NCBI RefSeq assembly: GCF_000374305.1
Contig: NZ_KB894100.1
Span: 124,001 to 188,000, forward strand
Direction: 5' to 3'
DNA length: 64,000 bases
Source of the DNA: Actinomadura flavalba DSM 45200
Lineage (GTDB): Bacteria > Actinomycetota > Actinomycetes > Streptosporangiales > Streptosporangiaceae
In this document: positions 93 to 63,511 of the stretch, one piece after another
Position numbering within the stretch: position 1 is the stretch's first letter
Layout: every line of letters begins with the position of its first letter
Notes under the pieces: generated by a model
Databases searched by the model: none
The model's input: the letters and a program-made list of their open reading frames with translations, nothing else
Told to the model about the DNA's origin: nothing
Program-made: the position numbers and the translations under genes

Positions 93-1319
93 GTGTGCCG
101 CGTGACCGGATGCCGGATCTGCGGAGGCGCCGTCGAGGAGTTCCTCGACCTCGGCCGACAGCCCCTTTCGGACGCGTTCCGGCGTCCGGACGACGACGCG
201 GAGGAGTTCTTCTACCGGCTCGCGGTCGGCCAGTGCGGCGACTGCACGATGGTGCAGTTGATGGAGGAGGTTCCGCGCGAGCGGATGTTCCACGAGGACT
301 ACCCGTACCACTCGTCGGGCTCGGCGGTGATGCGCGAGCACTTCACCCGCACGGCCCTCGGCTTCCTCGGCACCGAGCTGGACCACGACGACGCGTTCAT
401 GGTCGAGATCGGCTGCAACGACGGGGTGCTGCTACGCACCGTCGCTGACGCGGGCGTGCGGCACCTGGGCTTCGAGCCGTCCGGCGGCGTCGCCGCGCTC
501 GCCGCCGCCGCCGGGGTGCGGGTGCGCACCGAGTTCTTCGAGGAGGAGACGGCCGCGGCCGTCCGCGCCGCCGAGGGGCCCGCCGACGTCATCTTCGCGG
601 CCAACACCATCTGCCACATCCCCTACCTGGACTCGGTGCTGCGCGGCGCCGACGCCCTGCTCGGCCCCGACGGCGTCTTCGTCTTCGAGGACCCGTACTG
701 GGGCGACATCGTCGCCAAGACCTCCTTCGACCAGATCTACGACGAGCACTTCTACCTGTTCACCGTCCGGTCGGTGTCGGAGCTGGCCGAGCGGTTCGGG
801 TTCGCGCTCGTCGACATCGAACGGCTGCCCGTCCACGGCGGCGAGATCCGCTACACGCTCGCCCGCGCCGGGGCCCGCACGCCCTCGCCCGCGGTCGCCG
901 AGGCGCGCGCCGCCGAGGACGCGCGGCGGCTGACCGCCCCGGACGTGCTCACCGGCTTCGCCACGTCGGTCGCGGCGATCCGCGACGACCTGGTCGCGCT
1001 GCTGCGCACGCTGCGCGCCGAGGGACGCACCGTCGCCGCCTACGGCGCCACGGCCAAGAGCGCCACCGTCGCCAACTACTGCGGCATCGGGCCCGACCTG
1101 GTCTCCTACGTCTGCGACACGACCCCGGCCAAGCAGCACCGCGTCACGCCAGGGATGCACATCCCCGTCGAGCCGCCGGAGACGTTCGCCGGGAGCTACC
1201 CCGACTACGCGCTGCTGTTCGCCTGGAACCACGCCGAGGAGATCATGGCCAAGGAGGAGGGCTTCCGGGCCTCCGGCGGCAAGTGGATCGGGTACGTGCC
1301 CGACGTCAGGGTGAGCTGA
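93..1319 (+). CDS. NDP-sugar C-methyltransferase (EvaC/TylCIII type)
   Basis: Predicted SAM-dependent C-methyltransferase that adds the branch methyl group to C-3 of a keto-sugar nucleotide. The 408-residue length matches the EvaC/TylCIII/TcaB9 family. An N-terminal zinc site is visible (Cys7, Cys10, Cys48, Cys51), followed by the SAM-binding stretch VEIGCNDGVL (residues 104-113). An IYDEHF segment carries the Tyr/Glu/His set that the TcaB9 structure places at the active site. The C-terminal half fits the Methyltransf_14 domain. GTG at 93 has GGAGAAA 5 nt upstream; GTG at 102 is an alternative start. The stop codon directly abuts the GTG of the next gene. Substrate is inferred from the neighbouring 2,3-dehydratase and aminotransferase; family assignment is firm, exact sugar is not. 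Confidence 0.9.
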   Translation: MCRVTGCRICGGAVEEFLDLGRQPLSDAFRRPDDDAEEFFYRLAVGQCGDCTMVQLMEEVPRERMFHEDYPYHSSGSAVMREHFTRTALGFLGTELDHDDAFMVEIGCNDGVLLRTVADAGVRHLGFEPSGGVAALAAAAGVRVRTEFFEEETAAAVRAAEGPADVIFAANTICHIPYLDSVLRGADALLGPDGVFVFEDPYWGDIVAKTSFDQIYDEHFYLFTVRSVSELAERFGFALVDIERLPVHGGEIRYTLARAGARTPSPAVAEARAAEDARRLTAPDVLTGFATSVAAIRDDLVALLRTLRAEGRTVAAYGATAKSATVANYCGIGPDLVSYVCDTTPAKQHRVTPGMHIPVEPPETFAGSYPDYALLFAWNHAEEIMAKEEGFRASGGKWIGYVPDVRVS

Positions 1320-42800: not shown

Positions 42801-45800
42801 GTGCGACCGGCGACGGAGCGGGACCGGCCCCCGGGTCCCGATGCGGAATCCCTCCGCAAGAGCGCTGCTGAGCAGGAGCGACACCCGAAGAGAAGAGGTG
42901 GTTTCCGGCTCGCCGACCGGCGGGTCGCGACGCGGCTGGTGGCACTGATCGCCATCCCCGTGGCGGTCGCCGGCATCCTGGCCGGGCTGCGTCTGCGCGA
43001 CGCCGCGACCGAGGTTCAGGTGTACACGCGCATCGAGCAGTTGGCTACGCTGAGTGACCGAACGTCGGGTCTCGTCCAGGAACTGGAGGACGAGCGGGAC
43101 GTCACGGTCAGGTTCCTGAGCCTGTCCCGGAAGAAGCGCGACGACCTCTCCCAGACGCTGCGCGAGCAGTACGCCGCGACCGACCGCTCCGCCCAGAACG
43201 TCCGGGGCGCGCTCGGCGCGCTCGACCCCGCCGCGCACAACGAGCAGATCGCCGCCAAGCTCCGCGACATCGCCTACCGGCTCGACACGCTCGGCACCGT
43301 CCGGCAGCTCTCGGGCACCCGCAGCGCGTCCGCGTCGTCCACGCTGGACGTCTACGGCCAGCTCGTCGCGTCGCTGATCGGCGTCGACGACCTGGTCGCG
43401 CAGGGCAGCCCCGACCCCGGCCTCGCCGAGAGCACCCGGGCGTTCGCCGCGCTGGCCCGCGCCAAGGACCACGCCTCCCAGGAACGCGCCCGCGTCGACA
43501 TGACACTGCTCGCCGGACGGTTCGCCAACCCCGCCGACCGCGAGGGGCTCCAGGCGCTGCGCTCCCAGCAGGACAGCCAGATCGCGCTGTTCCGCGCCAT
43601 CGCCACGCCCGCCGAACGGCAGATCTTCGAGGACCTGGTGACCGGCCCCGAGATCGGCCAGGTCGAGCGCACCTACCAGCAGGCGCTGATCCGCTCCGGC
43701 AACGACCCGAACCTGTCGGTCCGCCCGCTGCGCCCGCGCGACTCGGTCGAGTGGAACCGCGTCGCCACCGCGCGGCTGGAGCAGATGCGCGGCGCCGAGC
43801 AGCGGCTCGCCGCCGCCATCGGCACCCGCGCCACCGAACTGAAGGACGGCGCCTGGCGCCGCGCCTTCACCGACGCGGCCGTCCTCATCGTCGGGCTGCT
43901 GCTGGCCGGGATCGCGACCGTCGTCGTCGCCCGTTCGCTGGTGCGCCCGCTGCGGCGCCTCCAGGTGGGCGCGCTGGAGGTCGCCGACAACCGGCTGCCG
44001 AGCCTGGTCGACCGGCTCCGCGACCCCGACGCCGCCAGCGGCGGCATCGAGGTCGAGCCCATCGACGTCCACTCCACCGACGAGATCGGCCAGGTGGCCC
44101 GCGCGTTCGACGAGGTCCACCGCGAGGCCGTCCGGCTCGCCGCCGACGAGGCCGTGCTGCGCGGCAACATCAACGCGATGTTCGTCAACCTGTCGCGGCG
44201 CAGCCAGACCCTCATCGAACGGCAGCTCCAGCTCATCGAGGAACTGGAGCAGAGCGAGCGCGACGAGGAGCAGCTCGCCAACCTGTTCCGCCTCGACCAC
44301 CTGGCCACCCGCATGCGCCGCAACTGCGAGAACCTGCTGGTCCTCGGCGGCCAGGACCAGGTGCGCCGGTGGAACCGGCCGGTGCCGCTCATCGACATCG
44401 TCCGCGCGTCGCTGTCGGAGGTCGAGCAGTACGAGCGCGTCGCGCTGCGCGTCGCCGGTGACATGACCGTCGCCGGGCCCGTCGTCAACGACCTCGTCCA
44501 CCTGCTCGCCGAGCTGGTGGAGAACGCCACCGTGTTCTCCGACGAGCGCACCAAGGTGACGATCTCCGGGCAGGCGCTCAGCGGCGGCGGGGCCATGCTC
44601 CAGATCACCGACAACGGCGTGGGCATGTCCCAGGAGGAGCTGGAGGACGCCAACTGGCGGCTCGCCAACCCGCCGGTCATCGACTTCTCGGCGGCCCGCC
44701 GCATGGGCCTGTTCGTGGTCGGGCGGCTGGCGGTCCGGCACGGCGTCCGCGTCGAGCTGCGCGCCGCGCAGGGCGGCGGGCTCACCGCGTTCGTGCTGCT
44801 GCCCGAACCGGTGATCAGCCCCGGCGACCCCGGCGGCATCGGCAGCCGCGCCTTCGGCCGCGACAGCGGCATGCACGAGGTCGTCCCGGCGCTGGCGGGC
44901 GACCCCCGCCTCAACGGCGGCCCCGCCGCCCCGCACCACGCGCCGCAGGACACCGGCGGCTTCGGCGCGTTCGGCGGCCCCGGCCAGCCGCCCCGCCCGC
45001 GCGGCACCGGGCCGCTGCCCGCGATCAGCGGCGACACCGGCCAGTTCCCCGCCCTCGGCGGCGGCGACACCGGCCAGTTCCCGGCCGTGCGCGGCGAGAC
45101 CGGGCCGCTGCCCGCGCTCGGCGGCGGACGGCGGCACGCCGCCGACGGTCCGCCGCCCCGGCGCTCGGACACCGGCCAGTTCCCGGCGATCGGCGCCACC
45201 GGACGGCCTCCGGCCGAGCAGCCGGTGCCGCCCGCGCCGCCGTCCCGCCCGGCCGTGCCCCGGCACGACGGGACCGGCCCGCTGCCGGTCCAGAGCGGAG
45301 AGACCGGTCCGCCGCCCGTCCAGCGCGGGGAGACCGGACCGCTCCCGCCCCAGCGCGGGGAGACGGGGCCGCTCCCGGTCCAGCGCGGCGGGACCGGACC
45401 GATCCCCGTCCAGCGCGGGGAGACCGGCCCGATCCCGGCCGTCCGCCCGGACGCGCCGGACCGTCCGGCCCCGGGCGGCGACCTGCCCGTCCGCACGCCG
45501 GGCGCGCAGCTCCCGGGCCGCGCGTCCCGGAGCACCACGCCCGACCAGGACCTGTTCCAGCCGAGCCCGGCCCGGCGGCAGGCGGCGGACCCGACGACGA
45601 CGGGGCCGCTCCCGCCCCCGTCCGAGCCGGTGCCGCCCGTGCCAGAGGGGCAGCGGCGCCCCTTCAGTTGGGACACCGGCCCGCTCCGGCCGCCGTCCGA
45701 GGACGGCGCCGCCGAGCAGCCGCCCCGGCGACCGGCTCCGCCGCCGCGGCCCGTCCGACCGCCCACGCCCCCCGCCGCGCCCCCGAGGCGCACGTCGCCG

Positions 45801-57963: not shown

Positions 57964-58006
57964 CCGACCCCGCCACGCTCCCGGCGTGCTCTGAAAGGTG
58001 TGATCT

Positions 58007-58351
58007 GTGGAAGCGGCCATCAACCGGTACCGCGTCCTCGCGCTCATCGTGGGCGTGATGCTGCTCCTGGTCTGCTTCGTGGGCGTGCCGGTCCGCTACA
58101 TCGGCGGCAACCCGACGCCGTCGGGCATCATCTCCCCGATCCACGGCGCCCTCTACATCGTCTACCTGGGCATCGCCTACGACCTGTGGCGCAAGGCGAA
58201 CTGGCCGCTGAAGAAGATGCTCGTCATGGTCTCGGCCGGCCTCATCCCCTTCCTGGCCTTCTTCATCGAACGCCGCGTCGTCGCGGACGCCCGCGCCGAA
58301 CTGGCCTCCCGGCAGGCCGCCGACGGCCCGGAACCGGTCAAGACCCCCTGA
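58007..58351 (+). CDS. DUF3817 membrane protein
   Basis: 114-aa DUF3817 protein with three helices: VLALIVGVMLLLVCFVGVPV, SPIHGALYIVYLGIAYDLWR and MLVMVSAGLIPFLAFFIERR. The PIHG motif is conserved in the family. GTG at 58007. Likely cotranscribed with the preceding gene and ended by a strong T-tailed hairpin. Confidence 0.88.
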   Translation: MEAAINRYRVLALIVGVMLLLVCFVGVPVRYIGGNPTPSGIISPIHGALYIVYLGIAYDLWRKANWPLKKMLVMVSAGLIPFLAFFIERRVVADARAELASRQAADGPEPVKTP

Positions 58352-58364
58352 TCCACCGCCGTAG

Positions 58365-58402
58365 GGGCGGGCCGTGGCACTGCGCCACGGCCCGCCCTTT
58401 TT
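58365..58402 (+). terminator. Rho-independent terminator with T-tract
   Basis: Perfect 14-bp stem (58365-58378 with 58384-58397), loop ACTGC, followed by TTTTT. It is the most classical intrinsic terminator in the window. Confidence 0.93.
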
Positions 58403-58413
58403 CCATCGCCCAC

Positions 58414-58457
58414 TACTTGACGTCAGTCGTCCAGTACTTGACAGTTAGCGTCAAGTA
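58414..58457. promoter_or_regulatory. Three-copy TACTTGAC operator over a promoter
   Basis: TACTTGAC occurs at 58414-58421 and 58435-58442 (21 bp apart, two helical turns) and inverted as GTCAAGTA at 58450-58457. The last two form an exact 8-7-8 dyad. TTGACG inside the first copy, a 17-nt spacer and GACAGT (-10-like) make a plausible promoter, so bound protein would block it. It lies 10 nt upstream of a helix-turn-helix gene. Confidence 0.7.
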
Positions 58458-58466
58458 GGAGGTGGC

Positions 58467-58976
58467 ATGGGTGCCGAGATGCCCGCGTGGGGCGAACTGA
58501 CCGCGCAGTTGCTGTCGCTCGTGGAGGCGCGGCTGGTCGATCCGCTGGAGATCCTGCTGGAGGACGACCTGGCGACCGTCCGCTCCCGGCTCGCCGCGCG
58601 CGCCGGAACCTGGGCGCAGCGGCTGCTGGGCGACGACGGCCCCGCCGCCGCGCTCACCGCCGCCCGCCTGGTGGCCGCGCTGTATCCGGGCGACGGGCCG
58701 TTCGACCCGCCCGCCGCGTGGTGGGCGACCCCGCTCGGCCGCGTCGTCGCCTGGCGCGTGGGGCATCCGGGCGCCGAGGCCGTCTCGTACGCCGTCGCGG
58801 GCGCGATGCTCGGCGTCACCCGTCAGGGCGTCCACGACCTCGTCACCCGGGGCAAGCTCGCCCGGCATCCGTCCGGCGGCGTCACCACCGCGTCCGTCCG
58901 CGACCGCATCGACCAGCGCGCGGGCGCCGCCCTGCGCACCCGACGACGAGAGGCCGGCCATGCACCCGAACGATGA
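58467..58976 (+). CDS. Helix-turn-helix protein, probably autoregulated
   Basis: 169-aa protein. Residues 1-100 are helical, acidic and unrecognised. Residues 105-155 contain an excisionase/MerR-like helix-turn-helix, SYAVAGAMLGVTRQGVHDLV followed by TRGKLARHP and ASVRDRID. ATG at 58467 follows AGGAGG. A three-copy repeat overlaps its promoter, suggesting it binds there itself. It overlaps the start of the aldo/keto reductase gene by 17 nt, so that gene is probably a target. Confidence 0.75.
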   Translation: MGAEMPAWGELTAQLLSLVEARLVDPLEILLEDDLATVRSRLAARAGTWAQRLLGDDGPAAALTAARLVAALYPGDGPFDPPAAWWATPLGRVVAWRVGHPGAEAVSYAVAGAMLGVTRQGVHDLVTRGKLARHPSGGVTTASVRDRIDQRAGAALRTRRREAGHAPER

Positions 58977-59939
58977 CCCCGTACCTTCGGCCGCTGGAGG
59001 GCCGCGTTCCGCCGGGACGGCGGGTGCGGCGACCGCCGCCGGGCGGATCGGACTGGCCGAGGGGCTGAGCGCCGGTCGTCTCGGGTACGGGGCGATGCAG
59101 TTGCCGGGGCCCGGTGCCTGGGGGCCGCCGAAGGACCGCGGCGAGGCCGTCGCGGTGCTGCGGCAGGCGGTCGAGCGCGGCGTCGATCACGTCGACACCG
59201 CCGGCTTCTACGGGCCGCACGTCGCCAACGACCTGATCTGCGAGGCCCTGCACCCGTACGCGGACGGTCTCGTCATCGCCACGAAGGTCGGCGTCGAACG
59301 GGACGGGCTGGGCGCCTGGAACCCGTCCGCGTCACCGAGGTCGCTGCGTGAGCAGGTCGAGGACAACCTGGCCGCCTGCACCTGCCCGTCCTGGACCTGG
59401 TCTACCTGCGGGTCGGCGGTGACGGCCTGCTGCCGCCGGACGAGACGCCGTGGACGGAGTCGTTCCAGGCGCTGATCGACCTGCGCGGGCACGGGCTGAT
59501 CCGCCACCTGGGACTGAGCGGCGTCGACGCGGCTCAACTCGCGGAGGCCCGCACGATGGCGCCCGTCGTCGCGGTGCAGAACCGCTACAACCTGCTCGAC
59601 CGCGCCGGGGAGGACGTCCTCCGGGCGTGCGAGCTGCACGGCGTCGCCTTCGTGCCGTACTTCCCGCTGGCGGCGGGGTTGCTGCGCACGGACCTGGACC
59701 CCGCCCAGATCCCGCCGGGCATGGGCCCGACGGCGTCACAGTCCGGGACGCTCGACGCGATCGCCGCCCGCCACGCCGCGACCCGCGCCCAGATCGCCCT
59801 GGTCTGGCTGCTGGCGACCTCGCCGTCCACCCTGCTGATCCCCGGAACGTCCTCGACGGCACACCTGGCGGAGAACACCGCCGCCGCCTCCATGGCACTC
59901 ACGGCGGACGAGGTAACCGAGCTGAACGCCCTGCGCTGA
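58960..59939 (+). pseudogene. Aldo/keto reductase, frameshifted
   Basis: Two frames together encode a full-length aldo/keto reductase. The first (58960 to about 59371) has YGAMQLPGPGAWG, DHVDTAGFYGPHVANDLICE (catalytic Asp and Tyr) and VIATKVGVERD (Lys). The second (about 59374-59939) resumes LDLVYLRVGGD and continues through GLSGVDAAQL, VQNRYNLLDR, LVWLLATSPSTLLIPGTSS. A single missing base in CTGGCC-GCCTGCACC near 59372 explains the break; the unbroken first frame ends at 59475 in nonsense. Either a recent pseudogene or an assembly error. The 3' end is the first unit of a 70-bp tandem array. Confidence 0.8.
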
Positions 59940-60258
59940 TCGGGGTGCGGGCGATCCGGCCGGTGGGTGCCCGGGCGGGAGAGTCGCTGAGCTGGACGTC
60001 GTGCGCTGATGGGGCGTGCGGGCGATCGGGTCGGTGGCTGCCCGGCAGGGGAGTCGCTGAGCTGGACGCCCTGCGCTGATCGGGCGTGCGGCGGACCGGG
60101 CCGGTGGGTGCCCTGGCAGGAGAGCCGCTGAGCTGGACGCCGTGCCCTGGTCGGGCGTGCGGAAGACCGGGCCGGTGGCAGGAGAGTCGCTGAGTTGGAC
60201 GTCGTGCGCTGATGGGGGGTGCGGGGGGCCGGGCCGGCGGCTGCCCGGGGCAGGAGAG
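59921..60258. repeat. Five-copy 62-71-bp tandem array seeded by the AKR 3' end
   Basis: Units begin with GCTGAACGCC or a variant (GCTGGACG(C/T)C, GTTGGACGTC) at 59921, 59991, 60061, 60132 and 60194, so the spacing is 70, 70, 71 and 62. Each continues with a TGCGCTGAT-like segment, GTGCGG, a CCGGCCGGTGG-like segment and GGAGAGTC. The first unit contains the last codons and stop of the aldo/keto reductase. Copies are diverged by several substitutions each. Confidence 0.88.
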
Positions 60259-60847
60259 TCGCCGGCCCGGCGTCTGCGGGGCCCGGTGTGGGTGCGCGGC
60301 GCCGGTGGCCCGGGGTGCGGGACGGGCGGTTCGCCGCCGCTCCGCGCACGCGCGACGGCGAACCGGTCTTCAAGGGAGGCCGGACGGCCGAGGACCCGAG
60401 GTGTGCCACCGTGGGCGGCCGGATGTCCCGGGAACAGGGGAGGCCCCGGGACATCGGCGGTGGTGGCGTCCTCGGCCGTCCGGATGGATGCGCCCGTCAG
60501 CGCGCCGTCATCCGCGTGCGGCCGCGCCGCGCGGTGGCGGCCGGGCCGCGCTCGGACTGCTCGGCGCGGACGGCGAGGGTGGAACGTGCACGGTGACTCC
60601 TGGGCGATCTGGGGACTTTGCCGGGATCGTCACTTAGGGTCACGATCTCAATGCGTAAGGTACCCACGTGCCACGCGCGCGTAAACGCAGGTCAAGAAGA
60701 AAAGATGACCGGCAGTGATCATCCCGGTGCGGGCAAAGCGGCACCCTCAAGATCACGAATCGGGGGCCGGTGCCGTCCACCGCTTGCCCGGCGGGGCGGC
60801 GGCGGCGAGAGTGACCGGGTGGCGTCCCCTCCGATCGGAGCCCCCGC
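60259..60847. other. Gene-free region with nested inverted repeats
   Basis: No convincing gene in about 590 nt. Inverted repeats: GGTTCGCCG (60328-60336) with CGGCGAACC (60356-60364); a 16-bp pair at 60380-60395 and 60468-60483; and nested within it an 11-bp pair GATGTCCCGGG (60422-60432) / CCCGGGACATC (60445-60455). The last 200 nt (AT-richer near 60640-60720) probably contain the promoter of the MFS gene. Confidence 0.55.
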
Positions 60848-62131
60848 ATGCCCTCTGCCGCGTCCCCCCGCCGCGCGTGGACGATCGTCCTGCTGCTGTT
60901 CTTCTTCATGGTCGTCAACTTCATGGACAAGATGGTCCTCGGCCTGGCCGGGGCCGACATCAGGGACGACCTCGGGCTGACCGACAGCGAGTTCGGCGCC
61001 GTCGGCAGCTCGTTCTTCCTGCTGTTCAGCCTGTCCGGCGCCGCCATCGCGCTGTTCGCCGACCGGTTCCCCGCGCGCCGGCTGCTCGCGGTCCTCGTCC
61101 TGGTGTGGAGCGTGTCGCAGCTCGTCGTCGCGCTGCCCGTCGCCGGATTCCTCACGCTCGTCCTCACCCGCGTCACGCTCGGCGCGGCGGAGGGCCCGGC
61201 GTTCCCGCTGGCGAACAACACCGTGTTCGGCTGGTTCCCCGACAAGGAGCGGACGCTGCCCAGCAGCGTTCTGACGGTCGGCGGCGCGGCGGGCGTCGCC
61301 GTCGGCGCCCCGGTGCTCGCCGTGCTCATCGGCCAGTTCGGCTGGCGGGCCGCGTTCGCGTTCACCGGCCTGCTCGGCCTGGTGTGGATCGCGTTCTGGC
61401 TGCGCCTCGGCGCCGAGGGCCCCTACGCCGCGCGCAGCCTCAAGGACGCCGGTGGGGGACCGGCCGTCCCGTACCGGAGACTGCTCACGTGCGGCAGCGT
61501 CCTCGGCGGGCTGGCCGCCGGGTTCGCGGTGTTCTGGATGCTGGCGGTCGCGATGACGTGGCTGCCGCAGTTCCTCCAGCGCGTGCACGGCTACGAGCTG
61601 GAACGGGCGGGCATCGTCGCGGCGGGCGTTCAGGTGTTCGGCATCACGTTCATCCTCGGCCTCGGCGCGCTGTCGCAACGGCTGCTGCGGCGCGGCGTGC
61701 CGAGCCGGGTGGCGCGCGGCGCCCTGGGCGGCGCGGCCGTCGTCGTGTCGGGCACGGCCATGCTGGGGCTGACCCGGGTGGGCGGCGGGTTCGCGATCAT
61801 CCTGGTCATGCTCGTCGCGTTCACGATCGCCAACGCGTTCCAGGGCCTCGGCCAGGCGGCGCTGGCCGAGCTGGCGCCGGTGCGGCAGCGCGCGGGCCTG
61901 CTCGGCGTCGTCGTCGCGCTCGCGTCCAGCGCGGGCGCCTTCGGCCCGGCCGTCACCGGCGCGATCATCGAGGGCGCGGCGAGCGACGCGGCGGGCTTCC
62001 GCGTGGCCTTCGACGTCGTCGCCGTCATGATGATCGTCGGCGGGCTGCTGGCCGCCCTCCTCATCCGTCCCGGCCGCGACGCCGCCGCGCTGGGCGTCGC
62101 GGCCGAACGTCCCGTCGCGGCGCGGCCGTGA
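60848..62131 (+). CDS. MFS transporter (anion:cation symporter-like)
   Basis: 427-aa transporter with 12 helices. The N-terminal VNFMDKMVLGLAGADIRDDL and the RVTLGAAEGPAFPLANNTVF region with the GxxEGPxFP signature match the ACS/phthalate-glucarate subfamily. Further helices include FAVFWMLAVAMTWLPQFLQR and FAIILVMLVAFTIANAFQGL. ATG at 60848. It imports or exports an organic anion; the convergent glutamate decarboxylase gene gives no direct functional link. Confidence 0.87.
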   Translation: MPSAASPRRAWTIVLLLFFFMVVNFMDKMVLGLAGADIRDDLGLTDSEFGAVGSSFFLLFSLSGAAIALFADRFPARRLLAVLVLVWSVSQLVVALPVAGFLTLVLTRVTLGAAEGPAFPLANNTVFGWFPDKERTLPSSVLTVGGAAGVAVGAPVLAVLIGQFGWRAAFAFTGLLGLVWIAFWLRLGAEGPYAARSLKDAGGGPAVPYRRLLTCGSVLGGLAAGFAVFWMLAVAMTWLPQFLQRVHGYELERAGIVAAGVQVFGITFILGLGALSQRLLRRGVPSRVARGALGGAAVVVSGTAMLGLTRVGGGFAIILVMLVAFTIANAFQGLGQAALAELAPVRQRAGLLGVVVALASSAGAFGPAVTGAIIEGAASDAAGFRVAFDVVAVMMIVGGLLAALLIRPGRDAAALGVAAERPVAARP

Positions 62132-62137
62132 GGCCCG

Positions 62138-63511
62138 TCAGTGGTGGAATCCGGGCTGGTGCGGGGCGCCGGTGCCGCCGTCGCCGAGCCGGGTGAGCGA
62201 GCGTTCGATGTCGTCGGCGAGCAGCGCGATCTCGTCCCGGCCGACGCCGTGCCGCACCAGGACGCGCTGGACGGTGGTGTCCTGCCGGGCGGCGGGCAGC
62301 GGATAGGACGGCACCTGCCAGCCGCGCGTGCGGAGCTGCTCGGACAGGTCGTAGAGGGAGAAGCCCGCGTTCGGCTTCAGCGTGTACGAGACGGCCGGCA
62401 GCGCGCCGCGCCCGTCGTAGAGCAGCTCGAACGGGCCCATGTCGCGGATGCGGTCCGCGAGGTACTGCGCGGTGTCCGCGCACGCCTGCTGGACGCGCCG
62501 GTACCCCTCGCGGCCCAGCCGCAGCAGCGCGTAGTACTGGGCGATGACCTCGCCGCCGGGACGGGAGAAGTTCAGCGCGAACGTGGGCATGTCGCCGCCG
62601 AGGTAGTTCACCTGGAAGACCAGCTCCTCGGGGAGCAGGTCGGCCGAGCGCCACACGGCCCAGCCGCAGCCGAGCGGCGCCAGCCCGTACTTGTGGCCGG
62701 ACGCGTTGATCGACGCGACGCGCGGCAGCCGGAAGTCCCACGGCAGGTCGGGCCGGAGGAACGGGGCGACGAAGCCGCCGCTGGCGGCGTCCACGTGGAC
62801 GGGGACGTCGTGCCCGGTGTTGGCCTGGATCGCGTCGAGCGCCTTGGCGATCTCGGCGACGGGCTCGTAGTCGCAGGTGAACGTGACGCCGAGGATGGCG
62901 ACGACGCCGATGGTGTTCTCGTCGACGTGATGGGCGAGCTGGTGCGGGCGCAGGCCGGTGGCGCCGGGTTCCAGCGGGACCTGGCGGAGTTCGACGTCGA
63001 AGTAGCGGGCGAACTTCTCCCAGCAGACCTGCACCGGCCCGCACACCAGGTTGGGCTTGTCGGCGGGCTGCCCGGCGGCCTCGCGGGCCTGCCGCCAGCG
63101 CCACTTGAGCGCGAGGCCGGCGAGCATCGCGGCCTCGCTGGAGCCGGTCGTGGAGCAGCCCATCGTGTCGCCCTCGGCGGGGGAGTTCCACAGGTCGGCG
63201 AGGATGTGGACGCAGCGCCGCTCGATCTCGGCGGTCTGCGGGTACTCGTCCTTGTCGATCATGTTCTTGTCGAGCGACGCGGCCATCAGGCGGCGCACCT
63301 CGTCGCTGTTCCACGTGGTGCAGAACGTGGCGAGGTTCTGGGCCGAGTTCCCGTCCAGGAGCAGTTCGTCGCTGATGAGGTCGTGGACGACCTTCGGGTC
63401 GGCCTGCCCCTCGGGCATCCGGTACTTGGGCAGCACCTGCTCGCTGAGCGGCGACGCGAACACGTCGTCGAACCCGGCGCTGTCCTTCGTCGCCACCCTG
63501 TGCAGCGCCAT
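62138..63511 (-). CDS. gadB: Glutamate decarboxylase
   Basis: 457-aa PLP enzyme converting glutamate to GABA with proton consumption. Family landmarks: AQNLATFCTTWNSDEVRRLM, GCSTTGSSEAAMLAGLALKW, HVDAASGGFVAPFLRP and SINASGHKYGLAPLGCGWAV with the PLP lysine. ATG at 63511 follows AAGGGGGCGGAA. The length and ending (PHQPGFHH; many GadB end in His) are normal. Convergent with the MFS gene, 6 nt apart; a GABA antiporter relation is possible but the transporter is not of the GadC type. Confidence 0.93.
   Translation of the reverse strand: MALHRVATKDSAGFDDVFASPLSEQVLPKYRMPEGQADPKVVHDLISDELLLDGNSAQNLATFCTTWNSDEVRRLMAASLDKNMIDKDEYPQTAEIERRCVHILADLWNSPAEGDTMGCSTTGSSEAAMLAGLALKWRWRQAREAAGQPADKPNLVCGPVQVCWEKFARYFDVELRQVPLEPGATGLRPHQLAHHVDENTIGVVAILGVTFTCDYEPVAEIAKALDAIQANTGHDVPVHVDAASGGFVAPFLRPDLPWDFRLPRVASINASGHKYGLAPLGCGWAVWRSADLLPEELVFQVNYLGGDMPTFALNFSRPGGEVIAQYYALLRLGREGYRRVQQACADTAQYLADRIRDMGPFELLYDGRGALPAVSYTLKPNAGFSLYDLSEQLRTRGWQVPSYPLPAARQDTTVQRVLVRHGVGRDEIALLADDIERSLTRLGDGGTGAPHQPGFHH

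Follow-up and report, generated by a model that had tools for sequence, protein, structure and literature searches.

Repeat arrays such as the one described here are commonly attributed to tandem duplication through replication slippage or unequal exchange, and the MIRU elements of mycobacteria are known as repeats dispersed over many loci. Among bacterial intergenic minisatellites, the rnc-fpg1 region of M. tuberculosis holds an array that begins 40 bp past the rnc stop codon and varies among strains, fpg1 expression being reported to rise with array length (PMC2734929). The 3' ends of genes in GC-rich bacteria have their own literature: U-less structured 3' ends are reported for Streptomyces clavuligerus (PMC8269248), and a survey reports hairpin clusters as terminators favoured in GC-rich genomes and places 98% of correctly identified termination sites no more than 80 bases from the stop codon (PMC8355165).

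The locus analysed here is the 3' end of an aldo/keto reductase (AKR) gene in a 64-kb window, i.e. the whole stretch of DNA under study. We regard it as likely that the repeat found there is a neutral intergenic minisatellite confined to a single locus, which grew in place, had its edge in the gene end by chance and displaced the terminator of the gene. As the mechanism we infer slippage or unequal exchange, with no selected function.

The array and its genomic context

TRF delimits the array at 59919-60262, with a period of 70, 5.0 copies, 80% matches and a score of 406, and offers for the same array an alternative period of 141 with 2.5 copies and a score of 421. This is the highest TRF score within the window, and in 30 shuffles of the window the score stayed at or below 73, versus 406-421 for the real array. 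The array thus shows what characterizes intergenic minisatellites, a head-to-tail series of units in the range of about 10-100 bp that stands far above the chance level. The first-pass annotation had correctly recognized a repeat here, its span of 59921-60258 having now to be corrected to 59919-60263; the copies start at 59919, 59989, 60059, 60130 and 60192, reproducing exactly the five copies spaced 70, 70, 71 and 62 nt that it had proposed. The genes and copies are as follows.

58467-58976, + strand: open reading frame of 169 aa upstream of AKR; its ortholog adjoins AKR in the relative G069
58960-59475, + strand: aldo/keto reductase, N-terminal part (PF00248 positions 1-95, E 3e-14)
59556-59939, + strand: aldo/keto reductase, C-terminal part, in another frame (PF00248 positions 155-289, E 2.7e-22)
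59919-59988, + strand: copy 1, 70 nt, made of the last six codons, TGA and 49 nt of noncoding DNA
59989-60058, + strand: copy 2, 70 nt, TGA retained
60059-60129, + strand: copy 3, 71 nt, TGA retained
60130-60191, + strand: copy 4, 62 nt, with an internal deletion in the noncoding part and the stop triplet lost
60192-60263, + strand: copy 5, 72 nt, TGA retained
60848-62131, + strand: gene of an MFS transporter downstream (PF07690, E 3.8e-42)

Copy 1 opens with GAG CTG AAC GCC CTG CGC TGA, the final six codons of AKR and its stop, and the C-terminal frame of AKR terminates at this TGA. This agrees with the initial proposal that the array starts inside the last AKR codons and carries the stop region outward, TGA being kept in three of the four extra copies (2, 3 and 5) and reading TGG in copy 4. 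Pairwise identity among the five copies in a MAFFT alignment is 81-90%, a divergence that fits the old amplification also suggested at first. Variants are common to copies 1 and 3 and to copies 2 and 5; these shared variants, like the 141-nt period that scores slightly above that of 70, fit a later duplication of a dimer. When the gene end is aligned locally to copies 2 and 3, the match already sets in 37-38 nt upstream of the last base of the stop, and the left breakpoint can therefore be placed only approximately. Somewhere within the 200 nt preceding the array the unit consensus is matched with a score reached by 5 of 500 shuffles, and homology to the array may, judging by such alignments, extend deeper into the coding tail of AKR. 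A sixth, degenerate copy 3' of the array was sought and rejected (score 12 versus a shuffle mean of 13.2, with 406 of 500 shuffles as high), as was a CRISPR array, given that the entire unit of ~70 nt is repeated without unique spacers. The period is not a multiple of 3, and the best-frame codon score is -47.6 after the stop penalty; for the AKR array itself, these are the two features that would point to decay as noncoding DNA.

AKR itself is split over two frames, the shift lying near 59380 relative to the G069 ortholog; from the sequence, this interruption could be either a real lesion of a pseudogene or a sequencing error. No Pfam or NCBIfam family was found for the 169-aa gene at E<=0.001, and it has matches at E<=1e-15 in 17 of the 65 genus genomes, its own included. 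Immediately 5' of this gene, at 58406-58458, repeated and partly inverted half-sites of the TACTTGAC type are found, which are conserved 5' of its ortholog in G069 and visible at the same place in G082 (L290); this cluster looks like a candidate operator, perhaps that of the 58467 protein itself. Downstream, 586 nt separate the end of the array from the start of the MFS gene, and they include a very large stem-loop at 60380-60483, whose 16-nt arms match perfectly and are separated by 72 nt (MFE -79.4, z -4.9); searching the genome with 60290-60600 gave 13 other matches among the best 40 of 638 candidates, none covering this stem-loop. Elsewhere in the window, positions 45001-45480 hold arrays of period 30, 33, 63 and 90, which are possibly coding because these periods are multiples of 3.

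Predicted hairpins and the place of the terminator

The array and its distal edge are predicted to fold into the following structures.

59945-60003, + strand: first junction hairpin, running from copy 1 (5' arm) into copy 2 (3' arm)
60015-60073, + strand: similar fold at the next copy boundary
60086-60144, + strand: similar fold at the third copy boundary
60157-60206, + strand: similar fold at the last copy boundary
60228-60271, + strand: terminal hairpin, an inverted repeat with 15-nt arms, 93% complementary

Each junction stem takes its 5' arm from the noncoding part of one copy and its 3' arm from the coding-derived start of the next (in order, MFE -28.7, -38.9, -31.8 and -16.0; z -1.4, -4.1, -1.8 and -0.3). 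After copy 5 it is unique flanking sequence that completes the stem (60219-60280, MFE -48.1, z -3.95): the arms of the terminal hairpin lie at 60228-60242 and 60257-60271, the 3' one extending 8 nt past the array. This hairpin stands ~290 nt from the AKR stop, at the distal edge of the array. A comparison was made with sampled genes of the same genome that are followed by 400 nt or more of DNA called noncoding (220 genes, counting AKR). The best 60-mer at +240..360 of the AKR stop is the lowest of the set, and that at +0..120 is unexceptional, 72 of the 220 genes having one at least as low. A consensus scan of the + strand from 58000 to 62200 detected no U-tract terminator of the classical intrinsic type; the predicted 60219-60280 fold is, in turn, the kind of strong GC-rich stem-loop 3' of a stop codon that is expected of the U-less terminators of GC-rich bacteria.

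A view of the locus without the array comes from one relative. AKR-like DNA is matched at E<=1e-10 in 58 of the 65 genus genomes, own included, and the AKR of G069 is the standout among them (72% over 854 of 980 nt of DNA), its upstream gene being syntenic; at the protein level, the upstream gene is 65% and the C-terminal part of AKR 61% identical to those of the window. The G069 frame is open through to its stop and ends in a similar tail (ELD-), the core of a single hairpin, comparable with the terminal one of the window, begins ~9 nt 3' of that stop (MFE -41.2, z -3.7), and the surrounding stretch (L225) is free of noncoding arrays in the TRF survey. Orthologs of the 169-aa gene were inspected with 1.5-kb flanks at 11 loci from the 16 other genomes; G069 was the only one with AKR downstream, and in L290 a distantly related AKR lies on the upstream side. 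The array-free state thus rests on a single ortholog that is not a close one, and since G069 is one, fairly distant species it shows the likely usual layout and not a direct ancestor.

Taken together, these data favour the following course of events. A tandem duplication would have had one breakpoint in the last codons of AKR, possibly as far as 38 nt upstream of the final base of the stop, whereas the second would have cut the AKR terminator hairpin within its 3' arm. Repeated unequal copying, probably partly as dimers, would then have produced five units, whose copies decayed as noncoding DNA. The internal junctions would form chimeric hairpins and the intact one would be left only 3' of the final copy; because it is found only beyond the last copy, the array would have come to separate the stop codon from the terminator that once followed it. 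The distal hairpin would accordingly be the original AKR terminator as predicted from its fold, shifted away by growth of the array. The four added units amount to 273 nt by the copy spacings, and the 3' untranslated region of AKR would have become longer by ~270 nt. Intergenic DNA would tolerate such growth, and a breakpoint within the final codons would do AKR no harm, as its frame is still closed by copy 1. One point against this explanation is the survival of the stop triplet in three of the four extra copies. An effect of the array on transcript ends is plausible, likeliest through the displaced terminator. If the terminator has indeed been displaced, the locus would be a clear-cut natural example of how a growing tandem repeat extends the 3' untranslated region of a bacterial gene.

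The same folds could be taken as a selected multi-hairpin terminator, in which every added copy contributes one more hairpin and the cluster as a whole shields the MFS gene against transcription arriving from AKR. The junctions do fold alike, the second reaching z -4.1, and hairpin clusters have precedent as terminators in the published survey. When the structure of junction 2-3 was imposed on the five boundaries, 82.7% of the pair cells were standard, versus 28-56% when it was slid, a point in favour of a selected hairpin series, but shared ancestry alone would produce this figure. Three of the four internal hairpins are weak compared with shuffles (z -1.4, -1.8 and -0.3), only 3 of 21 boundary pairs change on both sides, a covariation matched by 101 of 500 shuffles, and the + strand scan detected no U-tract terminator. 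The array also far exceeds the 80-base range given for 98% of sites in the survey (PMC8355165). Such a terminator is thus unlikely.

By analogy with the M. tuberculosis array, the repeat could instead vary in copy number and regulate the gene downstream. The strain variation and the length-dependent fpg1 expression reported for that array speak in its favour, but the MFS gene lies 586 nt past the AKR array, beyond another strong stem-loop, and diverged copies point to an old array and not to one recently homogenised. We regard this possibility as quite improbable, and return to a displaced terminator in a neutral array as the preferred explanation.

Uniqueness of the unit

An in-place origin depends on whether the unit occurs at other loci. 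With the array DNA as query at E up to 10, the best 40 of 191 candidates in its own genome comprised the array plus short matches, the best of them at E 0.002. A sequence-only profile of 71 positions built from the five copies recovered those five alone among the best 150 of 15305 first-look candidates scored in this genome, the next match having E 0.008, and in the other 64 genus genomes, searched with stricter filters and 77 candidates scored per genome, it returned nothing at E<=0.001. In a DNA comparison covering 59 genomes, the own one among them, 23 had a match at E<=0.001; outside the own genome the matches listed extend over no more than 25-91 nt (identity 76-96%), and we read them as GC-rich similarity and not as the unit because the genus profile search returned none. 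The first-pass annotation had pointed out that a unit dispersed beside unrelated genes would refute its proposal, and the check revealed no second locus among the candidates scored in the genome or in the 64 others. As no further copy was found in these searches, we take the array to have arisen in place.

These searches bear directly on the idea that the stop codon was hit by a mobile or dispersed intergenic repeat, such as a MIRU, REP or MITE element. Its hallmark, related copies at other loci, is absent from the own genome and from the genus as searched. The position of the array at a gene end would suit such an element, and copies 2 and 5 read TGATG, a stop-start overlap known from MIRU units. 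However, copy 1 belongs to AKR itself as its genuine coding end, and the AKR of G069 ends similarly (ELD-), making a mobile origin very improbable. An assembly or sequencing artefact, for which the draft state of the assembly (22 contigs) and the interrupted AKR frame could be invoked, is just as hard to believe, since the copies differ by 10-19% with distinct indels, unlike a misassembled identical repeat.

Repeats at gene ends in the genus and in described systems

The extent to which gene ends are generally repeated was estimated in 60 stretches of 20 kb from the own genome plus the window (1.264 Mb) and in 400 kb of each of three relatives (G069, G021 and G002). Genes were called by a simple codon model, giving a coding fraction of 0.75-0.79; because calling is this crude, it misses some genes, and a number of the targets taken as noncoding could be coding. 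Every gene end, from -60 to +20, was aligned to the next 480 nt, counting scores of at least 22 in noncoding targets. Gene ends repeated downstream across the stop numbered 13 of 847 in the own genome, the AKR array included, and 8 of 818 in the relatives (4/264, 3/282 and 1/272, respectively), with none on shuffled targets; additional matches with targets called coding were 2, 2, 0 and 2 in the four genomes. The uncommonness at first attributed to arrays that arise from a gene end is therefore not upheld, most of these cases being single or double repeats, unlike the five-copy AKR array. The own genome showed no significant excess over the relatives (p 0.38). Gene starts compared with upstream noncoding DNA were repeated in 6 of 844 cases in the own genome and in 3/261, 0/287 and 0/267 in the relatives. 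Pooled over the four genomes, the figures are 21 of 1665 gene ends versus 9 of 1659 gene starts (Fisher p 0.042), a weak 3' excess suggesting that something might favour 3' ends. As ~1% of the sampled gene ends (21/1665) are repeated, an array that extends into the final codons of a gene is, within the genus, nothing that would have to be explained in a special way.

An offset control was performed with 80-nt windows aligned to the next 300 nt, coding as well as noncoding DNA being allowed as target, on the 251 genes of the own genome whose downstream DNA was called noncoding for 300 nt or more. For window starts of -60, +20, +60, +100 and +140, repeats numbered 8, 8, 12, 12 and 13 (n=250-251), for those inside genes (-360, -240 and -120) 4, 2 and 3 of 251, and shuffled targets gave 0-2. 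Windows deeper in intergenic DNA repeat as often as gene ends or more, which speaks against gene ends being a hot spot in the own genome. In G069, G021 and G002, where counts are small (0-5 per window, n 65-90), the -60 window gave 2, 1 and 0, the +20 window 4, 3 and 2 and the +60 window 3, 1 and 5.

Individual inspection confirmed clear coding tails within the repeat at L188, L214, L221 and L162, among others. Mismatches by codon position were counted for 11 other listed gene ends (12 of the 13 being listed, AKR included) plus L221, which stands outside the gene-end count because its flank is shorter than 500 nt. Of the resulting twelve rows two lack coding cells, leaving ten, the AKR array not among them, with 51/199, 49/203 and 47/207 mismatches at positions 1, 2 and 3. 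Mismatch is equal across codon positions, and therefore these ten other copies decay as noncoding DNA.

Among the 12 noncoding-like TRF arrays in the 1.264 Mb the AKR array ranks third by score, and these 12 are no significant excess over the 5 in 1.2 Mb of the relatives (p 0.15). Several stretches of the own genome deserve mention in their own right. In L162 (G000:C2:250001-270000) three gene ends are repeated downstream with scores of at least 22 within 20 kb, two of them facing each other, and arrays of period 5, 10 and 15 occur too. A 62-bp x 3.9 noncoding array begins 15 nt past a stop codon (L173:596-838, G000:C9), and a 129-bp x 3.2 one lies 3 nt past another (L209:6936-7333, G000:C6) in a stretch with several more arrays; both were rejected as gene-end repeats, the coding tail not being convincingly in the unit.

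It would be tempting to generalize to a genus-wide process in which tandem duplication recurrently captures gene ends with their terminators, displacing or multiplying these and driving fast evolution of 3' untranslated regions with measurable read-through into neighbouring genes, the AKR array being an extreme and functional case; on our data we find this doubtful. Plain intergenic DNA of the own genome repeats as much as gene ends do, and the AKR array is mainly a calibration.

A literature search of titles and abstract openings returned no description of gene-end repeats of this kind, and the array is best placed by its likeness to better known systems. The MIRU elements of mycobacteria resemble it in unit size and in their position at a stop codon; unlike them, its unit is found at a single locus. 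With the hairpin-cluster or U-less terminators of GC-rich bacteria (PMC8355165; PMC8269248) it shares GC-rich stem-loops 3' of the stop without a U tract. It departs from them in that its strongest hairpin lies ~290 nt from the stop, beyond the 80 bases within which the survey places most sites (PMC8355165), and in that its internal hairpins, known here from predicted folds, are chimeric and mostly weak. As for intergenic minisatellites or VNTR, the AKR unit, unlike the rnc-fpg1 array (PMC2734929), takes in the last codons and the stop of the upstream gene, and its copies, read in one strain, are diverged. Nonetheless, both consist of tandem units of tens of bp in intergenic DNA just past a stop codon, and both belong to a single lineage whose related species lack the array (PMC2734929).
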